Assembly (NCBI GenBank): GCA_015064355.1
Contig: SVSJ01000021.1
Coordinates: 1 to 47,145 of the forward strand
From: Oscillospiraceae bacterium
GTDB lineage: Bacteria > Bacillota > Clostridia > Oscillospirales > CAG-272
Direction of reading: 5' to 3'
DNA: 47,145 nt
Part shown: piece by piece, positions 1,967-15,716 of the stretch
Position numbering within the stretch: the first letter of the stretch is position 1
How the letters are laid out: each line of letters begins with the position of its first letter
Notes under the pieces: model-generated
Seen by the model: only the letters and a program-made list of their open reading frames with translations
What the model was told of the DNA's origin: nothing
The model's database searches: none
Translations under genes and position numbers: made by a program

Positions 1967-3154
1967 TTAGAGCATTATAATAATCTTAGCCACAAGCACG
2001 ACAGCAACGAGAGCTACCGGGTACGTAGCCGCATATGCTGACGCTACCTCATCAGTACCAGCTGTGGAGATAAGCGCACCGAGAGCAGGAGTGGAGGTCA
2101 TACCTCCGGTGATAGAACCCAGGTTATTGAAGATGCTGAGCTTGAACACGTATCTTGCGAAGATGTAACCCACGATCATAGGGATGGTAGTAAGAGCAAC
2201 ACCGTAGAGGAAATACTCAAGCTGGAGATTTTCGATAAAGCGAACACCACCCGGAACACCTGCACCAATAAGGAACAAAACAAGACCCAGTTCACGGAAC
2301 ACGTTAAGGTTGTTCTTGCTTACACGAAGATCAACAGGTCCAATGTGGGCCAAATGTCCGAAAAGAAGACCTGACACCAGTGTACCACCGGATGTTCCCA
2401 GTGAGAAGTTAATGCCGGGAATCTTGATTGAACCTATGATAACGCCCACTGCAACCGCCAGGAAAAATGGGAAAAAATCAAGAGAATCAAGCTTTATGAG
2501 CTTACGCTTGGGCTCGGGAACAGCTATCATACCTGCCGCAACAAACGCCTCGCGCTCTTTTGCGATATCTACCTTAAGGATCTTCGGGAGAAGCTGAACG
2601 AACAGCACAACACCAAGCACACCGTAGATATACGCGATACCGTAACCCGCGGTAGCTGCGTTGGATACTTCCTCAGCCACACCTTCTGTAGCCGCGGAAA
2701 GGCCGGGGGTACTTGTAAGACCGCCTGTGAGAAGGCCTACCACCATACCTGCGTCAACCTTGAAGATAAGGATAATAGCAACCGCAACAAGGGCACCGGA
2801 TGAGATAACGATAAGTCCCATAAGGATATACGCAAGGGATTTCTTGTTCATGGTGCGGAAGAATTTCGGTCCTGCGATATATCCGACCGCTGTTACAAAC
2901 AGTGCTGTTCCGATATTGGAGAACACCTTGAATCCTGCAGGATCGTAAAGAGAGATCTCTGCCCCGCCAATGGTAAATGAGGGGACATAGTTCACAAGAA
3001 TACCGTAGATAAGTGCTACGAGAAGCACACCTGCAGTACCTAGAGACACGCCTTTTATGCTGATGCCGCCTACAAGGTAGCCTACAGCACCGATAGCAAA
3101 GGCGATAAAGATAAGTGAAAACATGGAGTCAAGAACTCCGCCAAGATATGCCAT
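1967..3154 (-). CDS. Aspartate-alanine exchanger (AAE) family transporter, probable C4-dicarboxylate exchanger
   Basis: Polytopic membrane protein of 395 residues from the AAE/YidE-type antiporter family. The internal duplication is visible: GGLTSTPGLSAA in the first half and GGMTSTPALGAL in the second are equivalent pore motifs, each preceded by a hydrophobic bundle. The central RCK (TrkA-C) domains of larger members are absent; only a short charged loop (about residues 200-225) separates the halves. Known members exchange aspartate/alanine, and relatives export succinate. It is the last gene of the fumarate operon, 18 bases after the flavoprotein gene, so exchange or export of succinate, fumarate, malate or aspartate is the best inference. 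Family call is good; substrate is inferred from context only. Confidence 0.8.
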   Translation of the reverse strand: MAYLGGVLDSMFSLIFIAFAIGAVGYLVGGISIKGVSLGTAGVLLVALIYGILVNYVPSFTIGGAEISLYDPAGFKVFSNIGTALFVTAVGYIAGPKFFRTMNKKSLAYILMGLIVISSGALVAVAIILIFKVDAGMVVGLLTGGLTSTPGLSAATEGVAEEVSNAATAGYGIAYIYGVLGVVLFVQLLPKILKVDIAKEREAFVAAGMIAVPEPKRKLIKLDSLDFFPFFLAVAVGVIIGSIKIPGINFSLGTSGGTLVSGLLFGHLAHIGPVDLRVSKNNLNVFRELGLVLFLIGAGVPGGVRFIENLQLEYFLYGVALTTIPMIVGYIFARYVFKLSIFNNLGSITGGMTSTPALGALISTAGTDEVASAYAATYPVALVAVVLVAKIIIML

Positions 3155-3172
3155 GATATATTACGCCTCCGA

Positions 3173-4789
3173 TTAAACCTTTCTGGTGTAGTCGGGGAGA
3201 AGCTTGGGAGACTGAACGTCAGTTTCAACGCCACTCTCTGCCAGCTCTGCTTCAAACTTTGCGATATGGTCAAGAGTAAGTGCACCGAGGGTTACTGTTT
3301 TCGCCTTTTCAGAAGCCTGCTGGCCGGCGTTTCTACCGAATACGATGATATCAAGGAGAGAGTTACCCATAAGTCTGTTTCTGCCGTGGATACCGCCTAC
3401 AACCTCACCTGCGGCGTAGAGATTTTCTACCCCGGTCATACCGTCGGCGGTGATATCAAGACCGCCGTTCTGGTAGTGGAGTGTGGGGAATACGAGGATG
3501 GGCTCTTTTCTGATATCGATGCCATACTTACCGAACATACGGAGCATTGCAGGGATTCTCTTCTCAATAGTTCCCTCACCGCCCTTAAGCTCGATCATAG
3601 GTGTATCAAGCCACAGACCCAGTCCGTCTGATGTCTCAAGACCGTTACCGCGTGCTGTGCATTCACGAATAATGGATGCTGCAGATACGTCACGTGTTTC
3701 CAGGGGATGCATAAATACTTCACCGTTTGCGTTAACAAGCTTTGCTCCAAGGGAACGAACCTTTTCAGTTACAAGAGCACCGAAGATCTGCTCGGGGAAC
3801 GCTGCGCCTGTGGGATGGTACTGAAGTGTATCAGCGTAAAGGAGCTTTGCACCTACTCTGTAACCAAGTACAAGACCGTCTGCTGTTGCGCCATAGTGGT
3901 TTGATGTGGGGAAGCCCTGATAGTGAAGTCTGCCCGCACCGCCTGTTGCCATGATAACAGTCTTTGCTCTCGCTACGAGAAGCTCGCCTGTTTCCATGTT
4001 CTTAAGTACAGCACCTGCACACTTGCCGTTTTCGTCAAGGATAAGCTCGATTGCTGATGTGAAGTCGATTACCGGAATACCACGGTTGAGAACTTCGTCA
4101 CGAAGTGTTCTCATAATTTCAGCACCGGAGTAGTCCTTTGCAGCGTGCATTCTCTTACGGGATGTACCACCGCCGTGGGTTGTTACCATTGTGCCGTCGG
4201 GTGTCTTATCGAACTCTACGCCAAGCTCGTTAAGCCACTGGATAGCTTCGGGAGCGTCACACACAAGCTTACGGAGAAGCTCGGGCTTTGCCGCAAAGTG
4301 ACCGCCGCCGAATGCATCAAGATAGTGAATAGCAGGGCTGTCGTTAGGCTTGTCAGCCGCCTGGATACCTCCCTCAGCCATCATGGTGTTTGCGTCCCCT
4401 ATACGAAGCTTGGTTACGATCATTGTATTTGCGCCGTTTTCGTGAGCCTCGATAGCCGCTGATGCACCTGCACCGCCGCCACCAATGATAAGAACGTCAA
4501 CGTCATAGTCGATCTTTGAGAGATCTACGTCAGAGGCGCTGATTCTGCTCTTACCCTGGAGAAGAGCTGCAAGCTCTGTGGGAACCTTGCCACCCTTGTT
4601 TACGCCGGCCTTCAGAACTTCAAACTCGCTCTGCTTGTAGTCAGGGTGATATGTAGCAAGGAGTGTTTCCTTTTCTTCCGCAGTCATTCTGCGAGGCTCG
4701 AATGCTGTATTAGCCGCTCTTGCAGCTTCTACCTTCTTCATGGATTCAAGCATCGCTTCTGTATATACCGCTGTTCTCTTTTCTACCAT
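3173..4789 (-). CDS. frdA: Fumarate reductase flavoprotein subunit, soluble type with N-terminal extension
   Basis: FAD subunit that would reduce fumarate to succinate, 538 residues. The dinucleotide-binding motif is IIGGGGAGAS at about 101-110. The active-site set of the SdhA/FrdA family is complete: HPTG His at about 325, Arg of TRDVSAAS at 366, His of LHYQNGG at 438, and Arg of RNRLMGNS at 472. Two features stand out. A ~95-residue hydrophilic region precedes the Rossmann fold, where ordinary FrdA begins almost at once. The His that carries covalent FAD in E. coli FrdA (SHTVAAEGG) aligns with Asn134 (ANTMMAEGG), so FAD is probably bound non-covalently, as in L-aspartate oxidase and soluble fumarate reductases. 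L-aspartate oxidase itself is unlikely given the Fe-S partner gene directly upstream. No membrane-anchor gene is present. Confidence 0.88.
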   Translation of the reverse strand: MVEKRTAVYTEAMLESMKKVEAARAANTAFEPRRMTAEEKETLLATYHPDYKQSEFEVLKAGVNKGGKVPTELAALLQGKSRISASDVDLSKIDYDVDVLIIGGGGAGASAAIEAHENGANTMIVTKLRIGDANTMMAEGGIQAADKPNDSPAIHYLDAFGGGHFAAKPELLRKLVCDAPEAIQWLNELGVEFDKTPDGTMVTTHGGGTSRKRMHAAKDYSGAEIMRTLRDEVLNRGIPVIDFTSAIELILDENGKCAGAVLKNMETGELLVARAKTVIMATGGAGRLHYQGFPTSNHYGATADGLVLGYRVGAKLLYADTLQYHPTGAAFPEQIFGALVTEKVRSLGAKLVNANGEVFMHPLETRDVSAASIIRECTARGNGLETSDGLGLWLDTPMIELKGGEGTIEKRIPAMLRMFGKYGIDIRKEPILVFPTLHYQNGGLDITADGMTGVENLYAAGEVVGGIHGRNRLMGNSLLDIIVFGRNAGQQASEKAKTVTLGALTLDHIAKFEAELAESGVETDVQSPKLLPDYTRKV

Positions 4790-4804
4790 TTCAGCCGCAC
4801 CTCC

Positions 4805-5479
4805 TTACTTCTCGATTTCTCTGTTGTTGTAAAGCTCTTTCATCTCGGAAACAGGCTTCTGCATAAGCGCCTGGATCAGCTTCTCAAAGGTACCGTCCTT
4901 GATTTCCTGTACTCTGTTTTCAAGATGCTCGGACTTGGGCGCAAGATACTTGCCGTTGATTCTTCTTGCAAGTACGCCCACCTGGGGATGAGAAATACCT
5001 GCAGGACAACGGGAAGAACATACGCCGCACATTACGCAGTCAAAGGATTCTTCAGCACAAGCCTCAAAGTCACCTCTCTGTGCGTATGCAATGTACTGCA
5101 TTACGTTAAGTCCCTGAGTACAAGCCTTTGTGCAGGCGTTGCATCCGATGCAGGAGTAAATTTCGGGATAAAGCTGCATCATTACAGCTTCGCTTACAGG
5201 TACTTTTTCAATATCATACACCTGCTTTACAAGGGGGAAGAAAGGCAAAGTCGCTACGTACATTCCCTCTTCAACCTTGGTCTGACAAGCGAGACAAGCC
5301 TTAAGCTCGCGCTCGCCCTTGATTCTGTATATTGTTGCACAAGCACCGCAGAAGCCGTTACGGCAGCCGCAACCGCGTACAAGCTGATAGCCTGCGTATT
5401 CCATTGCGCCCATAATGGTAAGGCTTGAAGGCACTTCATACTTCTTACCAAACAAGAACACGTTTACCATATTTTCCAT
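4805..5479 (-). CDS. frdB: Fumarate reductase iron-sulfur subunit, [2Fe-2S] plus two [4Fe-4S]
   Basis: Electron-transfer partner of the flavoprotein. The N-terminal half is a plant-type ferredoxin domain with the [2Fe-2S] ligands in CGCRNGFCGAC and a later CLAC. The C-terminal half has CIGCNACTKAC and CVMCGVCSSRCP. Canonical FrdB/SdhB has [2Fe-2S], [4Fe-4S] and [3Fe-4S], the last next to the quinone. Here the third motif has all four cysteines, which points to a [4Fe-4S] and a protein partner rather than quinone. At 224 residues it lacks the HdrB-like CCG half of methanogen thiol:fumarate reductase TfrB; separate HdrB and HdrC are encoded upstream. A TTG at 5509 would extend it by 10 residues, but GGAG seven bases before the ATG at 5479 supports that start. 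It follows flxA by 30 bases and precedes frdA by 15. Confidence 0.85.
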   Translation of the reverse strand: MENMVNVFLFGKKYEVPSSLTIMGAMEYAGYQLVRGCGCRNGFCGACATIYRIKGERELKACLACQTKVEEGMYVATLPFFPLVKQVYDIEKVPVSEAVMMQLYPEIYSCIGCNACTKACTQGLNVMQYIAYAQRGDFEACAEESFDCVMCGVCSSRCPAGISHPQVGVLARRINGKYLAPKSEHLENRVQEIKDGTFEKLIQALMQKPVSEMKELYNNREIEK

Positions 5480-5509
5480 ATCATTTCTCCATATTAAGGT
5501 GTGATTCAA

Positions 5510-6340
5510 TCAATACTCATCGGGAAGTTCAGAAAGCTCATCCATTCTGAATACGGGGCCGTCCTTGCAAACATATTTCGAACCTACGTTGCATCTTCCG
5601 CATTTGCCTATACCGCACTTCATCTTCAGCTCAAGTGTGGTGTATATCTGTGTTTCGGAGAAGCCAAGCTCCAAAAGTCCTGCAAGGGTGAACTTGATCA
5701 TAACCGGAGGTCCGCAGAGGATAGCTACCTTGTTCGTATCAAAGCCAAGCTCCTTAACGAAGTTTGGCACAAAGCCAACGTGACCGTCCCAACCGGGCTG
5801 TTCACGGTCGATAGTCAAGTGGACGTGCACATCACGCTCGTCCTTCATCCATTCGTTTACGATCTCGTCGTAGAACGCAAGGTCTTCCTTGGAACGGCTG
5901 CCGTACACGATGTCGATCCTGCCGTATCTTTCGCGGTAGTGTCGGCAATAGTTGATAACAGAGCGAACCGGTGCCATACCAACGCCGCCTGCGATGATGA
6001 GGAGGTCGTGTCCCGCGAATTCGTCGTCCACAGGGAATGCGTTACCGTATGGACCGCGGATCGTGATCTCCTGACCGGGCTCGATCATATGAAGCCAATT
6101 TGTCAGGCAACCGCATTTCTTAATCTCAAATTCAAGATAATCTTCGTTTGTGGGAGAGGATGTAATGGAGAACATCGCCTCACCAATACCCGGGAGTGAC
6201 ACCATAGCGCACTGGCCGGGCTTGTGGATGATAGGCTTCTTGCCGTCTCTTCCAACTACGCGGAAATTCTTTATGTCGGGTGTGTCGATTCTTACCTCAG
6301 TAACCACGCCGATTACGGGAATAAGTGTTTCAAAGTTCAT
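5510..6340 (-). CDS. flxA: FlxA-like FAD/NAD(P)H-binding oxidoreductase subunit
   Basis: NAD(P)H-oxidising subunit of a Flx-Hdr complex, 276 residues. The N-terminal FAD-binding barrel (FSITSSP, about 57-63) and the NAD-binding domain (LLIIAGGVGMAPVRS, about 113-127; CGPPVM, about 210-215) follow the ferredoxin-NADP reductase pattern. The C-terminal CGIGKCGRCNVGSKYVC holds the [2Fe-2S] ligands, as in PyrK, AsrB and hydrogenase gamma subunits. In isolation it could be any of those. The flanking hdrBCA and MvhD-like genes make FlxA (described for the FlxABCD-HdrABC NADH dehydrogenase/heterodisulfide reductase of Desulfovibrio) the best name. It would deliver electrons from NADH. GGAGG sits before the start, and the flxB stop is two bases upstream. 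Confidence 0.82.
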   Translation of the reverse strand: MNFETLIPVIGVVTEVRIDTPDIKNFRVVGRDGKKPIIHKPGQCAMVSLPGIGEAMFSITSSPTNEDYLEFEIKKCGCLTNWLHMIEPGQEITIRGPYGNAFPVDDEFAGHDLLIIAGGVGMAPVRSVINYCRHYRERYGRIDIVYGSRSKEDLAFYDEIVNEWMKDERDVHVHLTIDREQPGWDGHVGFVPNFVKELGFDTNKVAILCGPPVMIKFTLAGLLELGFSETQIYTTLELKMKCGIGKCGRCNVGSKYVCKDGPVFRMDELSELPDEY

Positions 6341-6342
6341 TG

Positions 6343-7365
6343 TTATTCCTCCTTGCCCAGCGTTTTCATTACTTTAACAATATTCATGGAGATTGGGCAG
6401 GACTGAAGACATCTGCCGCAGCCTACGCAACCAAATTCTCCCTTGTTATTTTCGGGGAAATACACCAGCTTATGCATAAATCTCTGGCGGAAGCGTTCCT
6501 TTTGTGTAAGGCGGGGATTGCCGTGTGCCATCTTTGTGAAGTCGGAGTACATACAAGAATCCCATGTGCGGAAACGCTTGATACCGTGGCCTGTATCGAA
6601 GTCCTTTATATCGTAGCACTGGCATGTTGGGCATACGAATGTACATGTACCGCAAGCGATGCACGCCTCGGAAAGTGATGCCCAGTTTTTGTCATCCCAG
6701 AATTCCTGAGTCTTTCCGCCGCCGAATTTTGACGTGTCAAGATTTGCGAGAGGAAGCTTATCCATGATCTCACGAGTCTTTGCCTTAACCTCGTCAAGGG
6801 TAGCGCTGTCTCTTTCCTCGAATATATCGCCAAGGGATTCGACAAATGCACTTCCCTTTTCTGTCTTCGCTTCAATGAAGTAGCCGCCGTCTGCAGGGGT
6901 GAACACTACATCTCCTTCGGGAGCAGATGCGTCAATACCGAATGCCTTACAGAAGCAGGTCTCTTCAGGTCTACGGCATGCCATAGAAATGATAACTCCG
7001 TGTTCACGTCTGTTTTTATAGTATGTGTCAACAGGATCTGTGAGGAACACCTTGTCGAGAATCGAGAAGCTTCTTGCATCACAAGCGCGAACTCCGAAGA
7101 TAGCGAAGTCTTCTGTTTCACGTCTCGGGTCGATGATCTCAATCTTCTTTTCCGTCATCTTGAACTCTACAAGGTTCTCTGTTTGCGGGAAGAAAAAGTC
7201 CTTTGCGCTTCTTGTGGTGTGGAGTCTTTCGGATACCTTTGTTCCGTTCTGCCACTTCTTGTATGCTGAATTTGTACCTTCTGTGTCAACAGGAACGTAC
7301 ACGTTCAGCTTTTTTGATGCTGCCTCAAAAAAGTTTTCAAGGCTTGCTTTAGCGATGTATTTCAT
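6343..7365 (-). CDS. flxB: FlxB-like 4Fe-4S dicluster subunit (AsrA/HyhB-like)
   Basis: Iron-sulfur electron-transfer subunit, 340 residues, related to anaerobic sulfite reductase subunit A and cytosolic hydrogenase beta subunits. The N-terminal ~200 residues form a globular domain with GVRACDARS and a Cys-rich ETCFCKAFG. Two [4Fe-4S] motifs follow: CIACGTCTFVCPTCQC at about 233-248 and CVGCGRCLQSCP at about 315-326. It would pass electrons between FlxA and FlxC/FlxD. Its ATG overlaps the preceding stop (TAATG), so translation is probably coupled. Which of the two ferredoxin subunits should be called FlxB and which FlxC is assigned by order only. Confidence 0.75.
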   Translation of the reverse strand: MKYIAKASLENFFEAASKKLNVYVPVDTEGTNSAYKKWQNGTKVSERLHTTRSAKDFFFPQTENLVEFKMTEKKIEIIDPRRETEDFAIFGVRACDARSFSILDKVFLTDPVDTYYKNRREHGVIISMACRRPEETCFCKAFGIDASAPEGDVVFTPADGGYFIEAKTEKGSAFVESLGDIFEERDSATLDEVKAKTREIMDKLPLANLDTSKFGGGKTQEFWDDKNWASLSEACIACGTCTFVCPTCQCYDIKDFDTGHGIKRFRTWDSCMYSDFTKMAHGNPRLTQKERFRQRFMHKLVYFPENNKGEFGCVGCGRCLQSCPISMNIVKVMKTLGKEE

Positions 7366-8339
7366 TATTCAGCACCTCTTTCTCTCACGATAGAGGGTTC
7401 TGCGTCATCGAATGTAAAGGAAATGAGAGGATGCTTTACGTCTTCGTTATCTCCTGCCTGGTATTCACCGTACAGCTCGTCCATATCCTTGATGAACTTA
7501 CGGTTGAGAAGGTGGAGGGGAATATGCTCGGGGCATACTCTGGAGCACTCACCGCAGTCAGTACATCTGCCGGCAACATGGTATGCGCGGATGATGTGGA
7601 ACATTTTTTCCTCAAATGAGTCAGCCGCCGCTTTCTGTGCAATGCCGGATTTGGGGTTATCAAAAACGCACTGTTCACAGGTACAAGCGGGACACACGTT
7701 ACGGCAAGCATTGCAGCGGATACATCTGGAAAGCTCACCCTGCCAGAACTCGAATCTCTCCTCAGAGGTCATCTGCTCCAGCTTTTCTACGAGATCAAAT
7801 CTTCCACAGTTTGCGATTTCTTCGCCGTCTTCACCTATGATCTCGTCATATGATGCAAGCTTCTTTGACTTGCAGGTAATACAGCGGTCAGCCATTACAT
7901 CTGCTTTAGCTACAGTCTCGTCTCCGTATACAGTCTTTACGGTGTAGTTGTCTCCATCAGCCTCGATACCAACAATACCGCTGATACCTCTCGCCTTGAT
8001 CTTCTCTACGTCCGCTTTTCCTTCGCAACCTACGCCGATAACGTAAACCTTTTCTCTGTCTATTCTCTTCTCTGCTGTAAGCTGGTTGAGAGAATATGTA
8101 TCGCAGGGCTTGAGGAACACCAGTGTCTTGCCTTCCAGTGTCTTTACTCTGAGAAGATACTTTGACACGTTTGCCGCGGTGAAATCGTCATACACGAAGT
8201 CTTTTTCTATCTCTTCGGCTGTTTCGAATATTGCGGGAGTTGCATCATATGCAAACTCACCGGCAGTCCAGCCGATCACTCTTGCCACCTCACCGGATGT
8301 GAGAAGCTCGATGGCTCTTTTCTTCATTACTTCTTGCAT
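7365..8339 (-). CDS. flxC: FlxC-like 4Fe-4S subunit
   Basis: Second ferredoxin-type subunit of the Flx module, 324 residues. Residues 1-150 resemble the FrhB/HdrA-associated fold (LVFLKPCDTYSL, VIGVGCEG). Next comes a Cys pair (DRCITCKSKK) and two [4Fe-4S] motifs, CIRCNACRNVCPACTC and CTDCGECSRVCP. An open frame extends 34 codons further upstream into the flxD gene. The ATG at 8339 is preferred because GGAGG lies exactly seven bases before it; the ATG at 8327 (overlapping the flxD stop as TAATG) is the alternative. The gene overlaps flxD by 13 bases and flxB by one, indicating coupled translation and a stoichiometric complex. Confidence 0.75.
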   Translation of the reverse strand: MQEVMKKRAIELLTSGEVARVIGWTAGEFAYDATPAIFETAEEIEKDFVYDDFTAANVSKYLLRVKTLEGKTLVFLKPCDTYSLNQLTAEKRIDREKVYVIGVGCEGKADVEKIKARGISGIVGIEADGDNYTVKTVYGDETVAKADVMADRCITCKSKKLASYDEIIGEDGEEIANCGRFDLVEKLEQMTSEERFEFWQGELSRCIRCNACRNVCPACTCEQCVFDNPKSGIAQKAAADSFEEKMFHIIRAYHVAGRCTDCGECSRVCPEHIPLHLLNRKFIKDMDELYGEYQAGDNEDVKHPLISFTFDDAEPSIVRERGAE

Positions 8340-8764
8340 CTCAGGTCCTCCAATCTGCGGTTCGGTCCAAGGCTTGTGATCTCTTCTACAAAGCTGTTCA
8401 TTGTTGCAGCAAACTTTGCTCCTTCTGCAGCGGATACCCATTCCAGTCGGGTTCTCTTTCTCTCGATTCCAAGGAAGTCGAGCATAGAGAACAGCATTGT
8501 CATTCTGCGGCGTGCGTAGTAGTTGCCTGTTGTATAGTGGCAGTCACCCGGATGGCATCCGCAGATAATTATCCCGTCAGCACCTCTTTGGAATGCCCGA
8601 AGGATGAACATGGGATTAACTCTGCATGAGCAAGGCACGCGGATGATCTTTACGTTTGCGGGATACTGGAGGCGGTTGGTACCGGACAGGTCTGCACCTG
8701 CATATGAGCACCAGTTACAGCAGAACGCAACAATGGTAGGAACAAATTTTTCGTTTACTTGCAT
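8327..8764 (-). CDS. flxD: FlxD/MvhD-family [2Fe-2S] electron-transfer subunit
   Basis: Small protein (145 residues) of the MvhD family, which links an electron-input module to HdrA in methanogen Mvh-Hdr and bacterial Flx-Hdr complexes. The cysteine pattern of the family is present: FCCNWCSYAGAD near residue 14, VPCSCRVNP near 48, and CGCHPGDCHY near 70. No hydrogenase (MvhA/G) genes accompany it, so input is expected from FlxABC. The start overlaps the end of hdrA by 10 bases, which fits tight coupling with HdrA, its direct partner. The family call is secure because MvhD cysteine spacing is distinctive. Confidence 0.88.
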   Translation of the reverse strand: MQVNEKFVPTIVAFCCNWCSYAGADLSGTNRLQYPANVKIIRVPCSCRVNPMFILRAFQRGADGIIICGCHPGDCHYTTGNYYARRRMTMLFSMLDFLGIERKRTRLEWVSAAEGAKFAATMNSFVEEITSLGPNRRLEDLRCKK

Positions 8765-10746
8765 ATTGCGTCAACCTCCGCCATAATCTGTTCGTTTGAG
8801 AAGCCGTAGAGGTCCATTGCACCCGACGGGCAGGTAACGGTACATGCGCCGCATCCCTGACATACTGCGGGATTAACGTAAGCTACTCTTCTCATTTTTG
8901 TTGTTCTGTCGGGCATTCTGAATTCCTTATCGGAATATGAAATCGCGCCGTAGGGACACACGTTAGCGCACTGACCGCATCCGTTACACATAAGCTCGTC
9001 GGAATGAGCTACGCAGGGATTACAGGTCAGCTTATCCTTCGCAAGAAGTCCAACCACCTTAACCGCGCAAGCACTCGCCTGTGACACGGTTTCGGGAATA
9101 TCCTTTGGTCCCTGGCATGTGCCTGAGAGGAAGATACCCGCAGTGGGAGATTCAACGGGACGAAGCTTTGCGTGTGCTTCTGTGAAGAAGTCGTTTGTGT
9201 CCATACTTGCTGTGAGCATTGTAGCAAGGGGGCGTGCGGACTTATCGGGCTCGATTGCCGCTGCAAGTACCACAAGGTCTGCCTTAATGTGTATCTGCTC
9301 GTTCATGATAAGGTCAGAGCCCTGAACGTCAAGTGTTCCGTCTGCTCTGGGAACAACCTTGCCGACTGCTCCCTTTATGTAGTGCACGCCGTAGTCTTCA
9401 ACTGCTCTGCGATAGAACTCGTCAAAGTTCTTACCCGGTGTACGCACGTCGATATAGAACACATACACGTCTGTATCGGGATACTTTTCTCTTGTAAGCA
9501 TTGCGTGCTTTGCTGTATACATACAGCAGATCTTTGAGCAGTATGTTTTACCCTTCTCCGGTGTGCATCTTGAGCCAACGCACTGGATAAACACGATAGT
9601 GTGAGGGTGCTTTCCGTCTGAGGGACGAAGCAGTGTACCCGAGGTGGGACCTGCGGCATTTGTGAGACGCTCAAACTCAAGGGATGTAATAACGTCCTTG
9701 GACTGGGAGTAAGCGTACTCGTCATATTTGTCTACCTTAATTGGGTTAAAGCCGGTTGCAACAACGATGGCGCCGTACTTTTCTTCGATAATCGTATCTT
9801 TTTGCTTGTAGTCGATAGCCCCTACCGAGCAAACCTTTGCGCAAACGCCGCACTTGCCGTTTTTCAGCATATTGCAGTGGTCCGCATCAATTGTTGCGAT
9901 CTTCGGTACCGCCTGTGCAAAGGGGATATATACAGCACGTCTGTTGTCCATTCCCATATTGAATTCATTGGGAACCTTTTTTACAGGGCATTTTTCGGTA
10001 CAGAGGCCGCAGCCCGTGCATTTTGTTTCGTCAACGTAGCGAGCCTTTCTCTTGATCTTCACGCTGAAGTTGCCCACAAATCCGGAGACAGCTTCAACCT
10101 CGCTGTAGGAGTATATCTTAATCTTCTCGTGCTGTGCGCAGTCAACCATTTTAGGTGTGAGGATACACGCCGCACAGTCAAGTGTGGGGAAGGTTTTGTC
10201 GATCTGGGTCATCTTGCCGCCGATGGTGGGATTCTTTTCAACGATGTCAACCTCGTATCCCGCCTCTGCGATGTCAAGGGCTGTTTGGATACCCGCAATA
10301 CCGCCGCCGATTACCAGCGCACGCTTTACAACGGGGCTTTCTCCTGCTGTAAGAGGCGCGTTGAGCAGTACCTTTGCGATGGCTGCTCTGCCGAGGATGA
10401 TAGCCTTTTCGGTGGCTTCTTCAATATTCTTATGTATCCAGGAGCACTGCTCACGGATGTTTGCGATCTCAACCATATATGGGTTAAGGCCTGCGGCAGT
10501 AGCTGTTTTTCTGAATGTTGCCTCGTGCATACGGGGGGAGCAGGAGCACACCACTATACCGGTGAGGCCGTGTTCGCGAATTGCGTCCTTTATCAAATTC
10601 TGGCCGGACTCAGAGCACATGTACTGATATTCAGCGGAAAGGACAACGGATGGTTCGCGGCCGAGAGCTTCAGCAACGGCTTTTACGTCAACTGTAGCCG
10701 CGATGTTTGTACCGCAATGGCACACAAATACACCGATTCTTTGCAT
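8755..10746 (-). CDS. hdrA: Heterodisulfide reductase subunit A, electron-bifurcating FAD subunit
   Basis: HdrA, 663 residues, full length for the family. Order seen: an N-terminal cysteine domain (VCHCG at 8-12; CSCS near 69), the FAD-binding GGGIAG motif near 148, the conserved DKTFPTLDCAACILTPKM segment near 185-205, an inserted ferredoxin domain (CTGCGLCTEKCP near 243; CGVCAKVCSVGA near 298), a second half of the FAD domain, and a C-terminal ferredoxin (CNGCGQCANVCPYGA near 588; CQGCGACTVTCPSGA near 632). In characterised HdrA the FAD splits electron pairs between a high-potential acceptor (through HdrB/C) and ferredoxin. Its place between HdrC and FlxD matches that role. No truncation or missing cluster motif is apparent. 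Confidence 0.93.
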   Translation of the reverse strand: MQRIGVFVCHCGTNIAATVDVKAVAEALGREPSVVLSAEYQYMCSESGQNLIKDAIREHGLTGIVVCSCSPRMHEATFRKTATAAGLNPYMVEIANIREQCSWIHKNIEEATEKAIILGRAAIAKVLLNAPLTAGESPVVKRALVIGGGIAGIQTALDIAEAGYEVDIVEKNPTIGGKMTQIDKTFPTLDCAACILTPKMVDCAQHEKIKIYSYSEVEAVSGFVGNFSVKIKRKARYVDETKCTGCGLCTEKCPVKKVPNEFNMGMDNRRAVYIPFAQAVPKIATIDADHCNMLKNGKCGVCAKVCSVGAIDYKQKDTIIEEKYGAIVVATGFNPIKVDKYDEYAYSQSKDVITSLEFERLTNAAGPTSGTLLRPSDGKHPHTIVFIQCVGSRCTPEKGKTYCSKICCMYTAKHAMLTREKYPDTDVYVFYIDVRTPGKNFDEFYRRAVEDYGVHYIKGAVGKVVPRADGTLDVQGSDLIMNEQIHIKADLVVLAAAIEPDKSARPLATMLTASMDTNDFFTEAHAKLRPVESPTAGIFLSGTCQGPKDIPETVSQASACAVKVVGLLAKDKLTCNPCVAHSDELMCNGCGQCANVCPYGAISYSDKEFRMPDRTTKMRRVAYVNPAVCQGCGACTVTCPSGAMDLYGFSNEQIMAEVDAICK

Positions 10747-10758
10747 CTTCTCTCTCCT

Positions 10759-11142
10759 TTACTTTGCGTACTTTCTCATTGCTGTCATAAGCAGCTGTCC
10801 GGGGGTATCCTCGTCAAGCTTTGCAGGGATGTCGTCCTGCTTCAGTCTGTTCTTGCCCTGCTGACGAATCACTTCAAGGCGCACAGCCTCCACTACCTTT
10901 GCAGGTTCAACACCTCTCGGGCATCTCTCAACGCAGGCAAAGCAAGTCAGGCACTTGTAAATGGATTCCGATTCCATAAGCTTTTCGATATTGCCCTCGT
11001 TTACCATAGCCACAAACTGGTGAGGATGGTATTCCATCTCATCGTATGACGGGCATGTTGCAGAGCATTTTCCGCATTTCATACACTTTCTTACTTCTGC
11101 TCCGCTCATTCGAAGGATCTGTTCTTTTCTCTTCTGTTCCAT
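10759..11142 (-). CDS. hdrC: Heterodisulfide reductase subunit C
   Basis: Small ferredoxin-like subunit of 127 residues with two [4Fe-4S] motifs, CMKCGKCSATCP at about 20-31 and CLTCFACVERCP at about 64-75, each ending in Cys-Pro as in HdrC and GlpC/GlcF-type proteins. It bridges HdrA and HdrB. Spacing is 12 bases to hdrB upstream and 12 to hdrA downstream. In this operon it may also contact the Fe-S subunit of the fumarate reductase, which has two motifs of the same type. Confidence 0.88.
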   Translation of the reverse strand: MEQKRKEQILRMSGAEVRKCMKCGKCSATCPSYDEMEYHPHQFVAMVNEGNIEKLMESESIYKCLTCFACVERCPRGVEPAKVVEAVRLEVIRQQGKNRLKQDDIPAKLDEDTPGQLLMTAMRKYAK

Positions 11143-11154
11143 TACAAATCCTCC

Positions 11155-11937
11155 TTAATCTATGAGCCCGAGAGCTTCTGCCAGCACTTCGGTGAAGTAC
11201 TTAACTTCGATTTTTTCGTCTGAGTTTTTCTTGATATTGTACTCGCAAAGGGGGCAAGCGGTGATCATAAAGTCCGCTCCCATTTCAAGGGCGTTTTCTG
11301 CCACAGCACTTGCTCTTTTCTTTGCAGCAGACTTGTCTTCAAGGGTTATATAGCCGCCGCAGCACTCGTTGCGCATGGAATAGATCACAGGCTCAGCACC
11401 GAGAGCGCGGATAAAGTCCTCCATGATCTTCGGGTTTTCGGGATCGTCAAACTTCAGCACACACGACGGGCGCAGGAGGAGACATCCGTAATATGCGGCG
11501 ATCTTCTTGCCGGTGAGGGGCTTTACAACCTTTTTCGCAAGCTCGTCAAAGCCAACTTCGTCACGGAGCAGTTCAAGAAAATGGATTACCTCTCCTTCTC
11601 CATGATACTCCATATCGGGAGCCATATAGTTGTTGACACGGCGGTCAAAATCTGCGTTTACCTTAAATTCGTGATTTGTCTGCTTCAGCACGTTGTAACA
11701 AGCGGAGCAAACAGTCAGCACACGTCCGCCGTTGTCTCGACCGTTGGCAAGAGCGCGGACTGAGGGCAGCTTTGTAGCGATCTCGTCCTTTGCGGATGTA
11801 TAAGCGCCGCCACAGCACTGCCAGTTTTCTATTTCACAGAGCTCAAAGCCCAGAAATTCCGCTGATTCTCTTGCGTATCTGTCAAGAGCCTTTGCCTTGT
11901 TCTTCAGCGTGCATCCGGGATAATATGCTATTTTCAT
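11155..11937 (-). CDS. hdrB: Heterodisulfide reductase subunit B, two CCG domains
   Basis: HdrB, 260 residues. Two complete CCG (cysteine-rich) domains are visible. The first has Cys9 (YYPGC), Cys41-Cys42 (QCCGG) and C77xxC80; the second has YYGC near 152, ECCGG near 196 and CPLC near 235. In HdrB of methanogens these bind two non-cubane [4Fe-4S] clusters that reduce the CoM-S-S-CoB disulfide. Firmicutes lack these coenzymes, so here the subunit either reduces another disulfide or relays electrons. The fumarate reductase genes in the same operon suggest the latter. It is the first hdr gene, 33 bases after fumC. Confidence 0.9.
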   Translation of the reverse strand: MKIAYYPGCTLKNKAKALDRYARESAEFLGFELCEIENWQCCGGAYTSAKDEIATKLPSVRALANGRDNGGRVLTVCSACYNVLKQTNHEFKVNADFDRRVNNYMAPDMEYHGEGEVIHFLELLRDEVGFDELAKKVVKPLTGKKIAAYYGCLLLRPSCVLKFDDPENPKIMEDFIRALGAEPVIYSMRNECCGGYITLEDKSAAKKRASAVAENALEMGADFMITACPLCEYNIKKNSDEKIEVKYFTEVLAEALGLID

Positions 11938-11970
11938 TTCTTCTCTCCAAATTATGTTTTCGCTGTTTTA

Positions 11971-13356
11971 TCAGAGATTCCCTGCCATCTCTTCGGGCTT
12001 GAATACTTCATCAAACTTCTCTGCCGTAAGGAAGCCGAGAGCTACGCAAGCCTGCTTCAAAGAAATGTTCTCTTTGTATGCCTTCTTTGCAGTCTTTGCG
12101 GCATTTTCATAACCGATATAGGGGTTAAGTGCCGTTACAAGCATCAGAGAGTTGTACAGATTATCGTGCATCTTCTGCTCGTTTGCACGGATTCCGATTG
12201 CGCAGTTGTCATTAAAGGAAACGATAGCTTCTGCAAGGAGTCGGCAGGACTGCAGGAAGTTGTAGATACATACGGGCATAAATACATTCAGCTCGAAGTT
12301 ACCCTGGGATGCAGCCATTGAAACTGCCACGTCGTTGCCCATTACCTGTACTGCTACCATTGTTACGGCTTCGCACTGTGTGGGGTTTACCTTTCCGGGC
12401 ATAATGGAGGAGCCGGGCTCGTTTTCGGGAATGGTGATTTCACCGAGGCCGAGTCTGGGACCGGATGCAAGCCAGCGCACGTCGTTTGCGATCTTCATCA
12501 TATCGCACGCAAGAGCCTTTACTGCGCCGTGAGCGAATACAAGCTCATCCTTGGAAGTAAGAGCGTGGAACTTGTTTTCTGCGGTCTCGAAATCCTTGCC
12601 GGTGATCTCGGAAACTGCCTCTGCAACCTTTGTGTCAAATCCACGGGGCGCATTCAGACCTGTACCAACGGCAGTACCGCCGAGAGCAAGAGTCTTAAGT
12701 GCAGGGAGAGATTTTTCGATAAGTGCGATATCCATTTCAAGGGAGCTTCTCCAACCGGAGATCTCCTGGGAGAATCGAATGGGTGTTGCGTCCTGGAGGT
12801 GGGTTCTTCCGCTCTTTGTGATACCTTCGTGCATCTTCTCAAGTCTGCGGAATGTGGTGATCAGCTTTGCTACTGCAGGGATGAGCTTGTCTTCAATCGC
12901 TTCAACTGCCGCGATATGCATTGCTGTAGGGAATGTATCATTGGATGACTGGCTCATATTGATGTCATCATTAGGGTGGCACAGCTTCTTGCCTGCAAGC
13001 TCGTTTGCGCGGTTTGCGATTACTTCGTTTGCGTTCATATTGGACTGTGTACCGCTACCTGTCTGCCATACTACAAGTGGGAAATGGTCGTTCAGCTCCC
13101 CTGCCATAACCTCGTCACAGGCCTGGGAGATATATGTAAGCTTTTCGTCCGTCATCTTCTCGGGACGGAGCTGGTTATTTGCAATAGCTGCCGCTTTTTT
13201 GAGTACGCCAAATGCCTTGGTGATCTCGCGGGGCATGGTTTCAATTCCTACGCCGATCTTGAAGTTTTCGTGGCTTCTCTCTGTCTGGGCTGCCCAATAT
13301 TTGTCGGCAGGTACTCTGACCTCGCCCATTGAGTCGTGTTCTATTCTGTATTCCAT
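11971..13356 (-). CDS. fumC: Class II fumarate hydratase
   Basis: Fumarase interconverting malate and fumarate, 461 residues as in the iron-independent class II family. Signature GSSIMPGKVNPTQCEA is exact for fumarase rather than aspartase or argininosuccinate lyase. Other active-site stretches are GSGTQSNMNANE (about 98-109), SSNDTFPTA and GRTHLQDATP. The frame is open seven codons further upstream, but AAAGGGA six bases before the ATG at 13356 supports that start, 17 bases downstream of the mdh stop. Position between malate dehydrogenase and fumarate reductase indicates that it runs as a dehydratase, supplying fumarate. Confidence 0.93.
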   Translation of the reverse strand: MEYRIEHDSMGEVRVPADKYWAAQTERSHENFKIGVGIETMPREITKAFGVLKKAAAIANNQLRPEKMTDEKLTYISQACDEVMAGELNDHFPLVVWQTGSGTQSNMNANEVIANRANELAGKKLCHPNDDINMSQSSNDTFPTAMHIAAVEAIEDKLIPAVAKLITTFRRLEKMHEGITKSGRTHLQDATPIRFSQEISGWRSSLEMDIALIEKSLPALKTLALGGTAVGTGLNAPRGFDTKVAEAVSEITGKDFETAENKFHALTSKDELVFAHGAVKALACDMMKIANDVRWLASGPRLGLGEITIPENEPGSSIMPGKVNPTQCEAVTMVAVQVMGNDVAVSMAASQGNFELNVFMPVCIYNFLQSCRLLAEAIVSFNDNCAIGIRANEQKMHDNLYNSLMLVTALNPYIGYENAAKTAKKAYKENISLKQACVALGFLTAEKFDEVFKPEEMAGNL

Positions 13357-13373
13357 ATCTGTTCCCTTTCCCA

Positions 13374-14318
13374 TCATATGTTAACGCTTTTGATTACTGT
13401 TTTAAGATTGTCCGCACTGCGTCTGAGAAGCATTATTTCTTCGTCTGTAAGTGCAGGGTTAAGCTTACCTCTTATGCCGTCACGGCCAACAATGCTGAGA
13501 GTGCTTAAGCAAACGTCACTGATACCGTATTCACCGTGCATCATTGTTGATATAGTAAGAGTTGTGTCCATTCCCGCCATCAGGCACTTGCAAATGTGGC
13601 AAACGGAAAGAGACACTGCATAGAAGGTTGCGCCCTTACGCTGAATGACTCTCGCGCCGGACTTTTTCATATAGTTTTCAACCTCTTCCTTATTAAGAGA
13701 GGGATAAAGGTTGTTTTCAGAGCTGATCACGTTGTGATACTCGTGGATCGGCACATTTGAAATGTTGGCAATAGACCAGGGCACAAACGAGCTGTCCCCA
13801 TGTTCACCGAATACGTATGCGTGTACGTTCTGCTGGTTGATATTATAGAATTCAGAGATTCTCGCGCGAAGACGGGATGTGTCAAGGATCGTACCGGAGC
13901 CAATGATCTTTGTTTCGGGAAGATCAGAGCACTTGCACATTACATAAGTAAGAATGTCAACAGGGTTTGAAACAATAATATACGTTGCATCCGGAGCATA
14001 GGTGGTGATCTGAGGAATTATGCTCTTCATAATGTCAACATTGGTCTGCGCAAGGTCGAGGCGGGATTGACCGGGCTTTCTCGCAAGACCGGAGGTGATA
14101 ATTACAATATCAGAATCGCACGCGTCACGGTAAGAACCTGCATACACCGAAACAGGGGAGCAGAACGGGATTCCCTGTCTGATGTCAAGGGCTTCTCCAA
14201 GGGCTTTTTCGGCATTAATGTCGATAAGAACGATCTCATTTGCCTGCCCGCCCACTGCCAATGTATACGCAATTGTTGAGCCAACGCTACCTGTGCCAAT
14301 TATTGTTATCTTGCTCAT
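13374..14318 (-). CDS. mdh: Malate dehydrogenase on an L-lactate dehydrogenase scaffold
   Basis: NAD-dependent 2-hydroxyacid dehydrogenase, 314 residues. GTGSVGS (8-14) binds NAD, Asp33 (LIDIN) selects NAD over NADP, His173 in GEHGDSS is the catalytic base and Arg149 (DTSRLR) binds carboxylate. Overall sequence, including GEYGISDVCLS, looks like lactate dehydrogenase. The specificity loop, however, reads SGLARKPGQSR: the residue that is Gln102 in LDH (PQKPGETR) is Arg80 here, as in malate dehydrogenase. Changing this residue to Arg is the classical engineered LDH-to-MDH switch. With fumC next in the operon, oxaloacetate to malate is the likely reaction. Annotation pipelines would probably call it ldh. 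It is the first gene of the operon; AGGAGA lies seven bases before the ATG. Confidence 0.82.
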   Translation of the reverse strand: MSKITIIGTGSVGSTIAYTLAVGGQANEIVLIDINAEKALGEALDIRQGIPFCSPVSVYAGSYRDACDSDIVIITSGLARKPGQSRLDLAQTNVDIMKSIIPQITTYAPDATYIIVSNPVDILTYVMCKCSDLPETKIIGSGTILDTSRLRARISEFYNINQQNVHAYVFGEHGDSSFVPWSIANISNVPIHEYHNVISSENNLYPSLNKEEVENYMKKSGARVIQRKGATFYAVSLSVCHICKCLMAGMDTTLTISTMMHGEYGISDVCLSTLSIVGRDGIRGKLNPALTDEEIMLLRRSADNLKTVIKSVNI

Positions 14319-14367
14319 AGATTAATCTCCTGTACTATGTTCTGAAAGGCATACTTTCTTATAATAA

Positions 14368-14396
14368 ATTATATCAAATATTGATAAATAATTCAA
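14368..14396 (-). promoter_or_regulatory. Promoter of the mdh-fumC-hdr-flx-frd operon with internal inverted repeat
   Basis: On the minus strand, -35 TTGAAT (14396-14391) and -10 TATAAT (14373-14368) with a 17-bp spacer. The spacer holds the inverted repeat TATCAA-ATA-TTGATA (14372-14386), which reaches into the -10 and could be an operator. The arm order does not fit FNR (TTGAT-N4-ATCAA) or Rex sites. Confidence 0.7.
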
Positions 14397-14577: not shown

Positions 14578-15675
14578 TTACAGTTTTTCGCAAAGGATGT
14601 CTGCAATTCTCTTGCAAGCAAAGCCGTCGCCGTAGGGATTGGATGCGCGGCTCATTTTCAAGTACTCTGCCTCGTCTTCAAGCAGGGTCTTGAATGAGGA
14701 GTAAATTACATCTTCATCTGTTCCAACAAGTTTAAGAGTTCCGGCGGCGATTCCCTCCGGTCTTTCAGTTGTGTCACGCATTACAAGCACGGGCTTGCCC
14801 AGTGAAGGAGCTTCCTCCTGGATTCCGCCGCTGTCTGTAAGGATCATGTAGCTGCGGGCAATGAAATTGTGGAAGTCAAGCACCTCAAGTGGCTCGATGA
14901 TATGTATTCTGTCGCAGTCACCAAGCTCTTCCGCAGCCGCCTCACGAACCACAGGATTCATGTGAATAGGATAGATAGCGCAAACGTCGGGATGCTCGTC
15001 GATAATGCGGCGGATAGCCCGGAACATATTGTGCATAGGCTGGCCGAGATTCTCTCTGCGGTGAGCGGTGATGATAATAAGACGGCGATCCCCTACCCAC
15101 TCAAGCTCCGGATGGGTGTAATCTTCACGAACAGTGGTCTTAAGGGCGTCAATGGCTGTGTTGCCGGTAACGTATATCGTGTCAGCTGCCCTGCCCTCTT
15201 TGAGAAGATTATTCTTTGACAACTCTGTGGGAGAAAAATTGAATTTCGAGATAATACTTACCGCCTGGCGGTTAAACTCTTCCGGATAAGGGGAGTAAAT
15301 ATCATAGGTGCGGAGTCCGGCCTCAACGTGACCAACTGGAATCTGCAGATAGAAGCACGCAAGAGCCGTCACAAAGGTCGTGGACGTATCACCGTGAACA
15401 AGCACGACGTCAGGCTTGATCTCACTAAGAAGCCCGCGAATGCGATCAAGGATATTTATGGTAACGTCAAACAATGTCTGCTTGTCTTTCATTATGGACA
15501 AGTCATAATCAGGAACGATGCCAAAGGCTTCAAGCACCTGATCGAGCATCTGACGGTGCTGACCTGTCACGCATAAAGTTACGTCAAGTTCTTTTCTGCT
15601 TTTCAGTTCAAGAACCAAAGGACACATTTTTATTGCTTCGGGCCGAGTGCCGAATACCACCATTACCTTCTTCAT
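14578..15675 (-). CDS. wecB: UDP-N-acetylglucosamine 2-epimerase (non-hydrolysing)
   Basis: Converts UDP-GlcNAc to UDP-ManNAc for cell-wall polymers such as teichoic acid linkage units or surface polysaccharide; cytosolic, GT-B fold, 365 residues. Family motifs in order: FGTRPEAIKM (about 8-17), VHGDTSTT, HVEAGLRT, PEEFNRQ, TAHRRENLG and DSGGIQEEAP near the C-terminus, which together include the catalytic acidic and His residues of WecB/MnaA. The open frame extends 13 codons upstream, but AAAGG before the ATG at 15675 and family length support that start. It is monocistronic, with its own consensus promoter and terminator. Confidence 0.92.
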   Translation of the reverse strand: MKKVMVVFGTRPEAIKMCPLVLELKSRKELDVTLCVTGQHRQMLDQVLEAFGIVPDYDLSIMKDKQTLFDVTINILDRIRGLLSEIKPDVVLVHGDTSTTFVTALACFYLQIPVGHVEAGLRTYDIYSPYPEEFNRQAVSIISKFNFSPTELSKNNLLKEGRAADTIYVTGNTAIDALKTTVREDYTHPELEWVGDRRLIIITAHRRENLGQPMHNMFRAIRRIIDEHPDVCAIYPIHMNPVVREAAAEELGDCDRIHIIEPLEVLDFHNFIARSYMILTDSGGIQEEAPSLGKPVLVMRDTTERPEGIAAGTLKLVGTDEDVIYSSFKTLLEDEAEYLKMSRASNPYGDGFACKRIADILCEKL

Positions 15676-15716
15676 AGATAAAACCTTTCGTTGAGTCGTC
15701 GCCGTTCTATACACTA

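Follow-up and report, generated by a model that had tools for sequence, protein, structure and literature searches.

We analyzed a twelve-gene operon on a 47,145-nucleotide stretch of DNA (contig SVSJ01000021.1 of assembly GCA_015064355.1, an Oscillospiraceae bacterium), hereafter called the window. In our reading, to which we assign a probability of roughly 65%, the operon as a whole would encode the reductive route leading from oxaloacetate to succinate plus a soluble fumarate reductase (FrdAB) wired to a Flx-Hdr electron-bifurcating unit. NADH would be oxidized at FlxA, and its electrons would travel via FlxBCD to the flavin of HdrA. There they would be split, one stream going to ferredoxin and the other passing from HdrC to HdrB, FrdB, FrdA, and fumarate. 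The net reaction would be 2 NADH + fumarate + oxidized ferredoxin → 2 NAD+ + succinate + reduced ferredoxin, and the reduced ferredoxin could then drive Rnf. Ferredoxin potentials lie between -420 and -500 mV. The available excerpts of PMC5861303 give +33 mV for fumarate and -320 mV for NADH. We estimated the standard free energy of the net reaction at about -49 to -33 kJ/mol.

What we observed are the genes, their order, intact cofactor and active-site motifs, and nearly perfect co-occurrence within the order; from these we infer that a complex forms, that electrons reach FrdB via HdrBC, and that the reaction has the stoichiometry and direction given above. The first-pass annotation of this DNA had proposed that HdrBC or FlxABCD passes electrons to FrdAB; gene neighborhoods strongly support the coupling of Flx-Hdr to FrdAB, while the bifurcation of electrons from NADH to ferredoxin and fumarate is the predicted part of that proposal.

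The twelve genes follow one another tightly on the minus strand, between positions 14318 and 1967 (mdh-fumC-hdrBCA-flxDCBA-frdBA-permease). Taking the likely starts of flxC (8339) and frdB (5479), both of which are ATG codons with a GGAG-like site ahead, the intergenic gaps range from -13 to +33 bp. The genes, all on the minus strand, are as follows.

13374 to 14318, minus strand: malate dehydrogenase of the LDH-like family, with Arg at position 80 (the LDH Gln102 site)
11971 to 13377, minus strand: FumC, class II fumarate hydratase (TIGR00979, 713 bits, passing the cut-off of 665)
11155 to 11937, minus strand: HdrB-like protein with two CCG domains (PF02754; best NCBIfam models SdhE and HdrB, below cut-off)
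10759 to 11142, minus strand: HdrC-like protein with two [4Fe-4S] motifs (TIGR03290, below cut-off)
8755 to 10746, minus strand: HdrA, flavin adenine dinucleotide (FAD)-dependent bifurcating-type subunit (NF040770, 788 bits, cut-off 1100; 5odc_A)
8327 to 8764, minus strand: FlxD, MvhD/FlpD-like (PF02662, E = 5e-56)
7365 to 8339, minus strand: FlxC, Fe-S protein (Fer4_8; the longest open reading frame [ORF] runs from 8441, and the ATG at 8339 with GGAGG is likelier)
6343 to 7365, minus strand: FlxB, HydB/AsrA-like Fe-S protein (PF17179; ShyB/HydB/AsrA models)
5510 to 6340, minus strand: FlxA, FAD/NAD-binding, HydG/AsrB/DHODB-like (PF00175, PF10418; HydG/AsrB models)
4805 to 5479, minus strand: FrdB, with one [2Fe-2S] and two [4Fe-4S] motifs (ORF from TTG 5509; ATG 5479 likelier)
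3173 to 4789, minus strand: FrdA, fumarate reductase flavoprotein (PF00890; PDB alignments; Asn at the covalent-FAD position)
1967 to 3154, minus strand: AspT/YidE-type permease with two Asp-Al_Ex domains (PF06826 in two stretches; TIGR01625 above cut-off)

Thus, the twelve tightly spaced genes described by the first-pass annotation are present and their family matches hold. Several subunits scored below the curated NCBIfam cut-offs (HdrA, 788 of 1100 bits; HdrB, 147 of 345; HdrC, 66 of 160; FrdA, 342 of 718), so that their names rest on similarity and are not equivalog calls. No membrane-anchor gene occurs among the operon genes, in agreement with the earlier description of FrdAB as anchorless. 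The permease is possibly a dicarboxylate transporter, a substrate suggested by its position in the operon.

We aligned 128 of the 129 FrdA sequences found, 120 of 124 FrdB, 83 of 83 HdrB, 84 of 84 HdrC, and 49 of 50 malate dehydrogenases, with filters on length, stops, and score. The window supplied one row in each case, and the FrdA rows include distant L030 and L179 (L numbers denote loci and G numbers genomes). Window FrdA aligns with Escherichia coli fumarate reductase (3p4p/1kf6) from residue 95 to about 500, and PDB alignments also match it to mitochondrial and bacterial SdhA and to L-aspartate oxidase. Identity as an L-aspartate oxidase (NadB) was rejected, given 268.8 bits to TIGR00551 (cut-off, 452.75) and the pairing with FrdB. 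The active-site residues His325, Thr341, Glu342, Arg345, Arg366, His438, and Arg472 are kept in all 128 sequences, with Ser for Thr in 2; we take the roles of these seven positions in substrate binding and proton transfer to be those of complex II and E. coli FrdA. One locus, L092, has a stop in its FrdA frame and was excluded from alignments A1 and A2; in this metagenome-assembled genome the stop reflects either a pseudogene or an assembly error.

At the position of the FAD-linking His of complex II, window FrdA has Asn134, and Asn is found in 126 of the 128 sequences (exceptions, L085 and the outgroup L179). In E. coli Frd mutants lacking the covalent FAD bond, fumarate reduction is spared but succinate oxidation is crippled; Asn at this site therefore fits fumarate reduction and not succinate oxidation. 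The dinucleotide-binding motif starts at about residues 90 to 105 in most members and at 14 to 15 in two outgroups, which indicates that the family carries an N-terminal extension of about 90 to 95 residues. This extension had no Pfam match. Complex II flavoproteins have a C-terminal domain, and that domain was not among the Pfam matches of FrdA.

FrdB contains the two [4Fe-4S] motifs that the first-pass annotation had reported (two CX2CX2CX3C) plus a [2Fe-2S] motif, and its four [2Fe-2S] and eight [4Fe-4S] ligand cysteines are invariant in 120 of 120 sequences. Likewise, the eight Cys of HdrC are kept in 84 of 84. HdrA aligns with PDB 5odc_A over its full length (E = 2e-206, residues 3 to 660), including the FAD and ferredoxin domains, and keeps the residues matching E356 and K409 of 5odc. 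The TfrB model matches FrdB, HdrC, and HdrB in separate segments, and the best model for HdrB is the fumarate reductase protein SdhE; we counted the span of one TfrB model across these three proteins in favor of Hdr-Frd coupling.

The first gene carries an NCBIfam label of L-lactate dehydrogenase. Protein-engineering work marks Arg at the LDH Gln102 site of the specificity loop as a sign of malate dehydrogenase, and when aligned to PDB LDHs, 49 of 49 sequences have Arg there. We therefore rejected lactate dehydrogenase; the substrate-loop residue fits the name "mdh" given at first, and the automatic L-LDH annotation is probably wrong across the homologue group of 13374 to 14318.

A scan of named genomes matched at least 593 stretches, and the best 80 of 581 relatives, chosen by FrdA identity, were treated as close loci. 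For gene-order counts, loci without enough upstream sequence were omitted gene by gene. Of the 80 close named loci fetched, 58 had upstream sequence long enough to judge the core, and all 58 have the order hdrBCA-flxDCBA-frdBA, accompanied by fumC in 53 of 54, mdh in 42 of 52, and a permease of this type in 47 of 66. The best 80 loci are mostly labelled as uncultured Clostridia, many from the rumen or animal gut, and include Ruminococcus flavefaciens (L101). Two loci in metagenome-assembled genomes labelled Treponema (L084) and Bacteroidaceae (L109) have the same kind of operon and represent mislabelled bins or transfer. FrdA was present at 68% identity or more in 29 of 59 genomes (own genome included), while distant homologues had about 31 to 36% identity.

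Among 197 genomes sampled evenly from the order, FrdA was found in 41 and HdrA in 41, with both in 40 and neither in 155 (E 1e-150; Fisher P about 2e-39, kinship uncorrected). FrdA and HdrA were on one contig in 39 of the 40, and in the other (G506) both lie at contig ends beside operon genes. The sole genome with HdrA and not FrdA (G514) has an HdrA that is 48% identical and in a different cluster; on this basis, the Flx-Hdr of this clade in the order looks dedicated to Frd. The survey that the first-pass annotation had called for, of hdrABC-flxABCD together with anchorless frdAB, thus recovered FrdA together with HdrA in 40 of 197 genomes and, separately, the core order in 58 of 58 close named loci, and the notion that it is unique to this genome was rejected.

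We examined fifteen operon genomes for their metabolic setting; 12 of these reach 90% completeness or more, with contamination no higher than 5%. For the own genome, completeness is 79.86%, which makes absences there soft. Frd, hdrA, and flx genes lie in line in ten (the window, G002, G007, G013, G016, G024, G031, G034, G035, and G045), and FrdA and HdrA share a contig in G033, G051, G055, and G058; G005 appears to correspond to the named locus L031. RnfC was above the cut-off in 13 of the 15, including the own genome, in which contig C9 carries RnfC and, after it, RnfD, G, E, A, and B (D, E, A, and B above the cut-off; G by eye). All 15 have an [FeFe] hydrogenase. Methylmalonyl-CoA mutase was found in 0 of 15, so the end product should be succinate and not propionate via that route.

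To follow FrdAB beyond the order, 398 genomes of the phylum were surveyed. Besides the own genome, 38 had FrdA at 52 to 66% identity (39 loci), and there were two distant matches; all 39 loci were fetched, and G200 was left out. A complete Flx-Hdr set adjoins Frd in three gene orders: that of the window, hdrCBA-flxDCBA-frdBA (L171), and frdBA followed by complete hdrBCA-flxDCBA (L162, L170, L172, and L174). In a tree of FrdA (67 of the 128 rows, selected by thinning on locus number), the window group, L171, and the four frdBA-hdrBCA-flxDCBA loci are placed apart, so that the three orders occupy separate parts of the tree. The occurrence of Frd with Flx-Hdr in three gene orders supports functional coupling. 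Eleven further loci (L143, L145, L148, L149, L151, L154, L156, L157, L160, L161, and L165) have more than one HdrA, as copies or fusions, together with an MvhD-like gene ahead of frdBA; HdrC and HdrB are present in 9 of these, and the other two are cut by contig ends. Four loci hold hdrC-hdrB-frdB-frdA only.

Counting its partners across the family (Flx-HdrABC in three orders, multiple HdrA at 11 loci, HdrBC at 4, and a NapC-type cytochrome at 2), FrdAB is, judged by its gene neighborhoods, a module with exchangeable donors among which Hdr proteins recur. A wider view would make FrdAB a separate soluble class, with an N-terminal extension, noncovalent FAD, Hdr proteins in place of an anchor, and various attached machines, and would make quinone-free fumarate respiration via Rnf common in gut and rumen Clostridia, with a Ruminococcus flavefaciens genome among them. 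We hold this wider view tentatively, as a close call that leans slightly against.

Several observations weigh against the bifurcating reading. The close loci were selected by FrdA identity, so that the 58 of 58 count of gene order is one of close relatives. RnfC was not above the cut-off in G031 and fell just under it in G051. UbiA was above the cut-off in two of the 15 operon genomes, the own genome and G045. The protein of the own genome is nearest to the decaprenyl-phosphate phosphoribosyltransferase model (86.5 bits; cut-off, 234), with MqnP at 25 of 375 and the menA model not listed among its NCBIfam matches, and we therefore rejected menaquinone synthesis by the own genome on the strength of the UbiA match. 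In G045, however, the best model is 1,4-dihydroxy-2-naphthoate polyprenyltransferase (213 of 289 bits), and the gene adjoins one for a heptaprenyl-synthase-like protein. Thus, G045, an operon genome with a MenA-like protein, may have a quinone. This locus (L189) combines MenA-like, heptaprenyl-synthase-like, pyridine-nucleotide-disulfide-oxidoreductase-like, and ApbE-like genes, a set that we take to resemble an extracellular electron transfer locus. The term "quinone-free" in the first-pass annotation is therefore likely to be right for the own genome, with its phosphoribosyltransferase-like UbiA in an 80% complete assembly, but it may not extend to G045 with its MenA-like protein.

Other adverse observations concern FrdAB apart from Hdr. 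Among the 197 genomes, the sole one with FrdA and not HdrA, G585 (99% complete), has frdBA in a 20-kb stretch free of hdr and flx genes. A search of this genome for HdrA at E 1e-6, run without a control, gave no match, although the same query found 41 genomes elsewhere. This genome (L191; 1.2 Mb) is nested in the operon group and keeps frdBA without adjoining Flx-Hdr. In the phylum, 19 of the 39 loci, some of which lie at contig ends, had no Hdr genes adjoining frdA within the fetched stretch. Neighbor families were checked at L168, L144, L147, and L175, and the other loci were assigned by similarity cluster. NapC/NirT-type cytochrome genes precede frdB at L147 and L175, which suggests quinol as the donor of FrdAB there; other neighbors are class I fumarase and malic enzyme (L168) and pyruvate carboxylase (L144).

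HdrA was then sought in 23 genomes (the 18 that carry the nineteen Hdr-less loci, the four with HdrBC-only loci, and that of L171) and was found in 19 at E 1e-120, including 14 of the 18 with Hdr-less loci. A complete Flx-Hdr cluster lies elsewhere in G142, G094, and G098, and a cluster in G226 is cut by a contig end. The HdrA frames of G088, G132, G288, and G308 each have a single TGA in frame, suggestive of a selenocysteine-containing HdrA. FrdA was present with no HdrA at E 1e-120 in G399, G124, G326, and G121. The five FrdA genomes without a strong HdrA match imply that FrdAB can have another donor, and the Hdr-less frdBA loci imply that it is not everywhere dependent on Hdr. Finally, HdrB, with both CCG disulfide-reducing sites, may still act on thiols, and no biochemistry for such an operon was found in the literature searched.

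The last-mentioned property of HdrB bears on an alternative in which Flx-Hdr reduces a cellular disulfide, a role proposed for it in Desulfovibrio, and fumarate is reduced by a diffusible thiol via a TfrAB-like HdrB-HdrC-FrdAB unit, with bifurcation still possible. Both CCG cysteine sets are intact in 83 of 83 HdrB sequences, the segment-wise TfrB matches described above suit such a unit, and of the four genomes with an hdrC-hdrB-frdB-frdA locus, the one examined further (G098) has a complete Flx-Hdr elsewhere. However, no CCG domain appears among the Pfam and NCBIfam matches of FrdB itself, DsrC was found in 0 of the 15 operon genomes, and one HdrB in one operon makes two separate HdrB roles unlikely. 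We consider this alternative unlikely overall.

A second alternative dispenses with bifurcation, so that FlxABCD-HdrABC would be a plain wire from NADH to FrdB, the potential of fumarate being wasted and ferredoxin uninvolved. No experiment contradicts it, and the five FrdA genomes just discussed count in its favor. But HdrA retains the architecture and residues of a bifurcating subunit, it would be superfluous in a plain NADH:fumarate enzyme, and RnfC, a possible user of ferredoxin, accompanies the operon in the 13 genomes noted above; we regard a nonbifurcating wire as quite improbable. Reverse use, in which succinate would be oxidized with reduced ferredoxin to make NADH (confurcation), might suit syntrophs, and the class I fumarase and malic enzyme genes adjoining some related FrdA loci could serve succinate oxidation, but we judge it very improbable given the Asn in place of the FAD-linking His (the fumarase/malic enzyme loci are not among the exceptions), the lack of methylmalonyl-CoA mutase in the operon genomes, and the Pseudoclostridium thermosuccinogenes homologue, which makes succinate according to the excerpts of PMC7282089.

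The boundaries of the operon are marked by two further features.

14368 to 14396, minus strand: promoter-like site TTGAAT-17-TATAAT with an extended -10, matching at 10 of 12 positions
1925 to 1959: hairpin with T-runs, scored on the plus strand for the convergent MFS gene, the T-rich run of the minus strand being judged by eye

The promoter-like match coincides at 14396 with the end coordinate of the first-pass annotation, which had placed the operon under one promoter and before one terminator. It is weak on its own, since 32 promoter-like matches were found in 18 kb against 22.7 expected; further matches inside the operon are weaker. A convergent MFS gene abuts the end of the operon at 1920, and the hairpin between the two is probably a terminator common to both. 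Upstream lies a wecB-like gene (14578 to 15714) with its own terminator-like hairpin (14570 to 14546).

If the bifurcating reading is true, the high-potential acceptors of flavin-based bifurcation, which include crotonyl-CoA and heterodisulfide, would also include fumarate, and energy-conserving, NADH-driven succinate formation in bacteria without menaquinone would be explained. Succinate formation would then yield reduced ferredoxin and hence either H2 or, via Rnf, an ion gradient. Rumen and gut Clostridia often carry the gene set (FrdA in 41 of the 197 genomes of the order), which therefore bears on the balance of succinate, propionate, and H2 in these habitats. Culturable organisms allow a direct test.

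Compared with known systems, the window operon differs from quinone-linked complex II (SdhABCD/FrdABCD) in having no anchor gene, two CX2CX2CX3C motifs in FrdB instead of the [3Fe-4S] ligand pattern, and Asn134 in place of the covalent-FAD His. The 8-methylmenaquinol:fumarate reductase SdhABE likewise has an HdrB-like subunit with a fumarate reductase, but the match to the SdhE model reaches 155 bits against a cut-off of 500, and the window operon has HdrA and Flx. The thiol:fumarate reductase TfrAB (NF004900/NF004898) also pairs an FrdA-like protein with an Fe-S subunit. Its TfrB model, however, holds FrdB- and HdrB-like parts in one chain, whereas window FrdB lacks the C-terminal CCG domain, and the window proteins fall far below the TfrAB equivalog thresholds (342 bits against 718, and 38 against 385). 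The methanogen HdrABC-MvhAGD complex (5odc) resembles the window in its full-length HdrA homologue and MvhD-like FlxD; the window has an NADH module in place of the hydrogenase, and its predicted acceptor is fumarate. FlxABCD-HdrABC of Desulfovibrio vulgaris, which Ramos et al. are said to have linked in 2015 to a disulfide (DsrC) and to ethanol metabolism, shares the subunit set (hdrABC and flxABCD clustered) and the entry of NADH. In contrast, the window operon adds frdBA, and DsrC was found in none of the 15 operon genomes.

Three further published cases are relevant, each as given in the available excerpts. In Gram-positive sulfate reducers, HdrCB replaces QmoC beside QmoAB, a parallel to the present case (PMC4149029). 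For tubeworm symbionts, TfrAB and KorABCD have been proposed to form a complex with Flx-Hdr (PMC6315080); tfrAB is interspersed there with flxABCD-hdrABC and korABCD, and direct supply of a fumarate reductase by Flx-Hdr is proposed as for the window, but the setting is the autotrophic reductive tricarboxylic acid cycle and the reductase is of the TfrAB type. Among the excerpts consulted, the full arrangement is stated in PMC7282089 and not in those of PMC6315080, PMC5861303, PMC7174568, PMC6776011, or PMC4149029. The FAD-site change, the exchangeable partners, and the co-occurrence counts were not found in the excerpts of the literature searched, and we do not claim novelty for them.

The "succinate operon" of P. 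thermosuccinogenes (CDQ83_RS03365-RS03315) combines genes for fumarate hydratase, Flx-Hdr, and fumarate reductase with one for a putative succinate transporter, and its transcripts rose about 4-fold under CO2 limitation, although not significantly for all subunits (PMC7282089, in excerpt); we count these transcript data in favor of the bifurcating reading. Citing a 2019 preprint, the same source proposes a coupling between fumarate reductase and the reduction of ferredoxin. The first-pass annotation had doubted that the arrangement was known; both the gene arrangement and the coupling idea were in fact already published there. Compared by description only, the two operons share fumarase, Flx-Hdr, FrdBA, a transporter, and the proposed coupling, and differ in that no malate dehydrogenase is listed for P. 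thermosuccinogenes. The window operon is a further member of this published arrangement.

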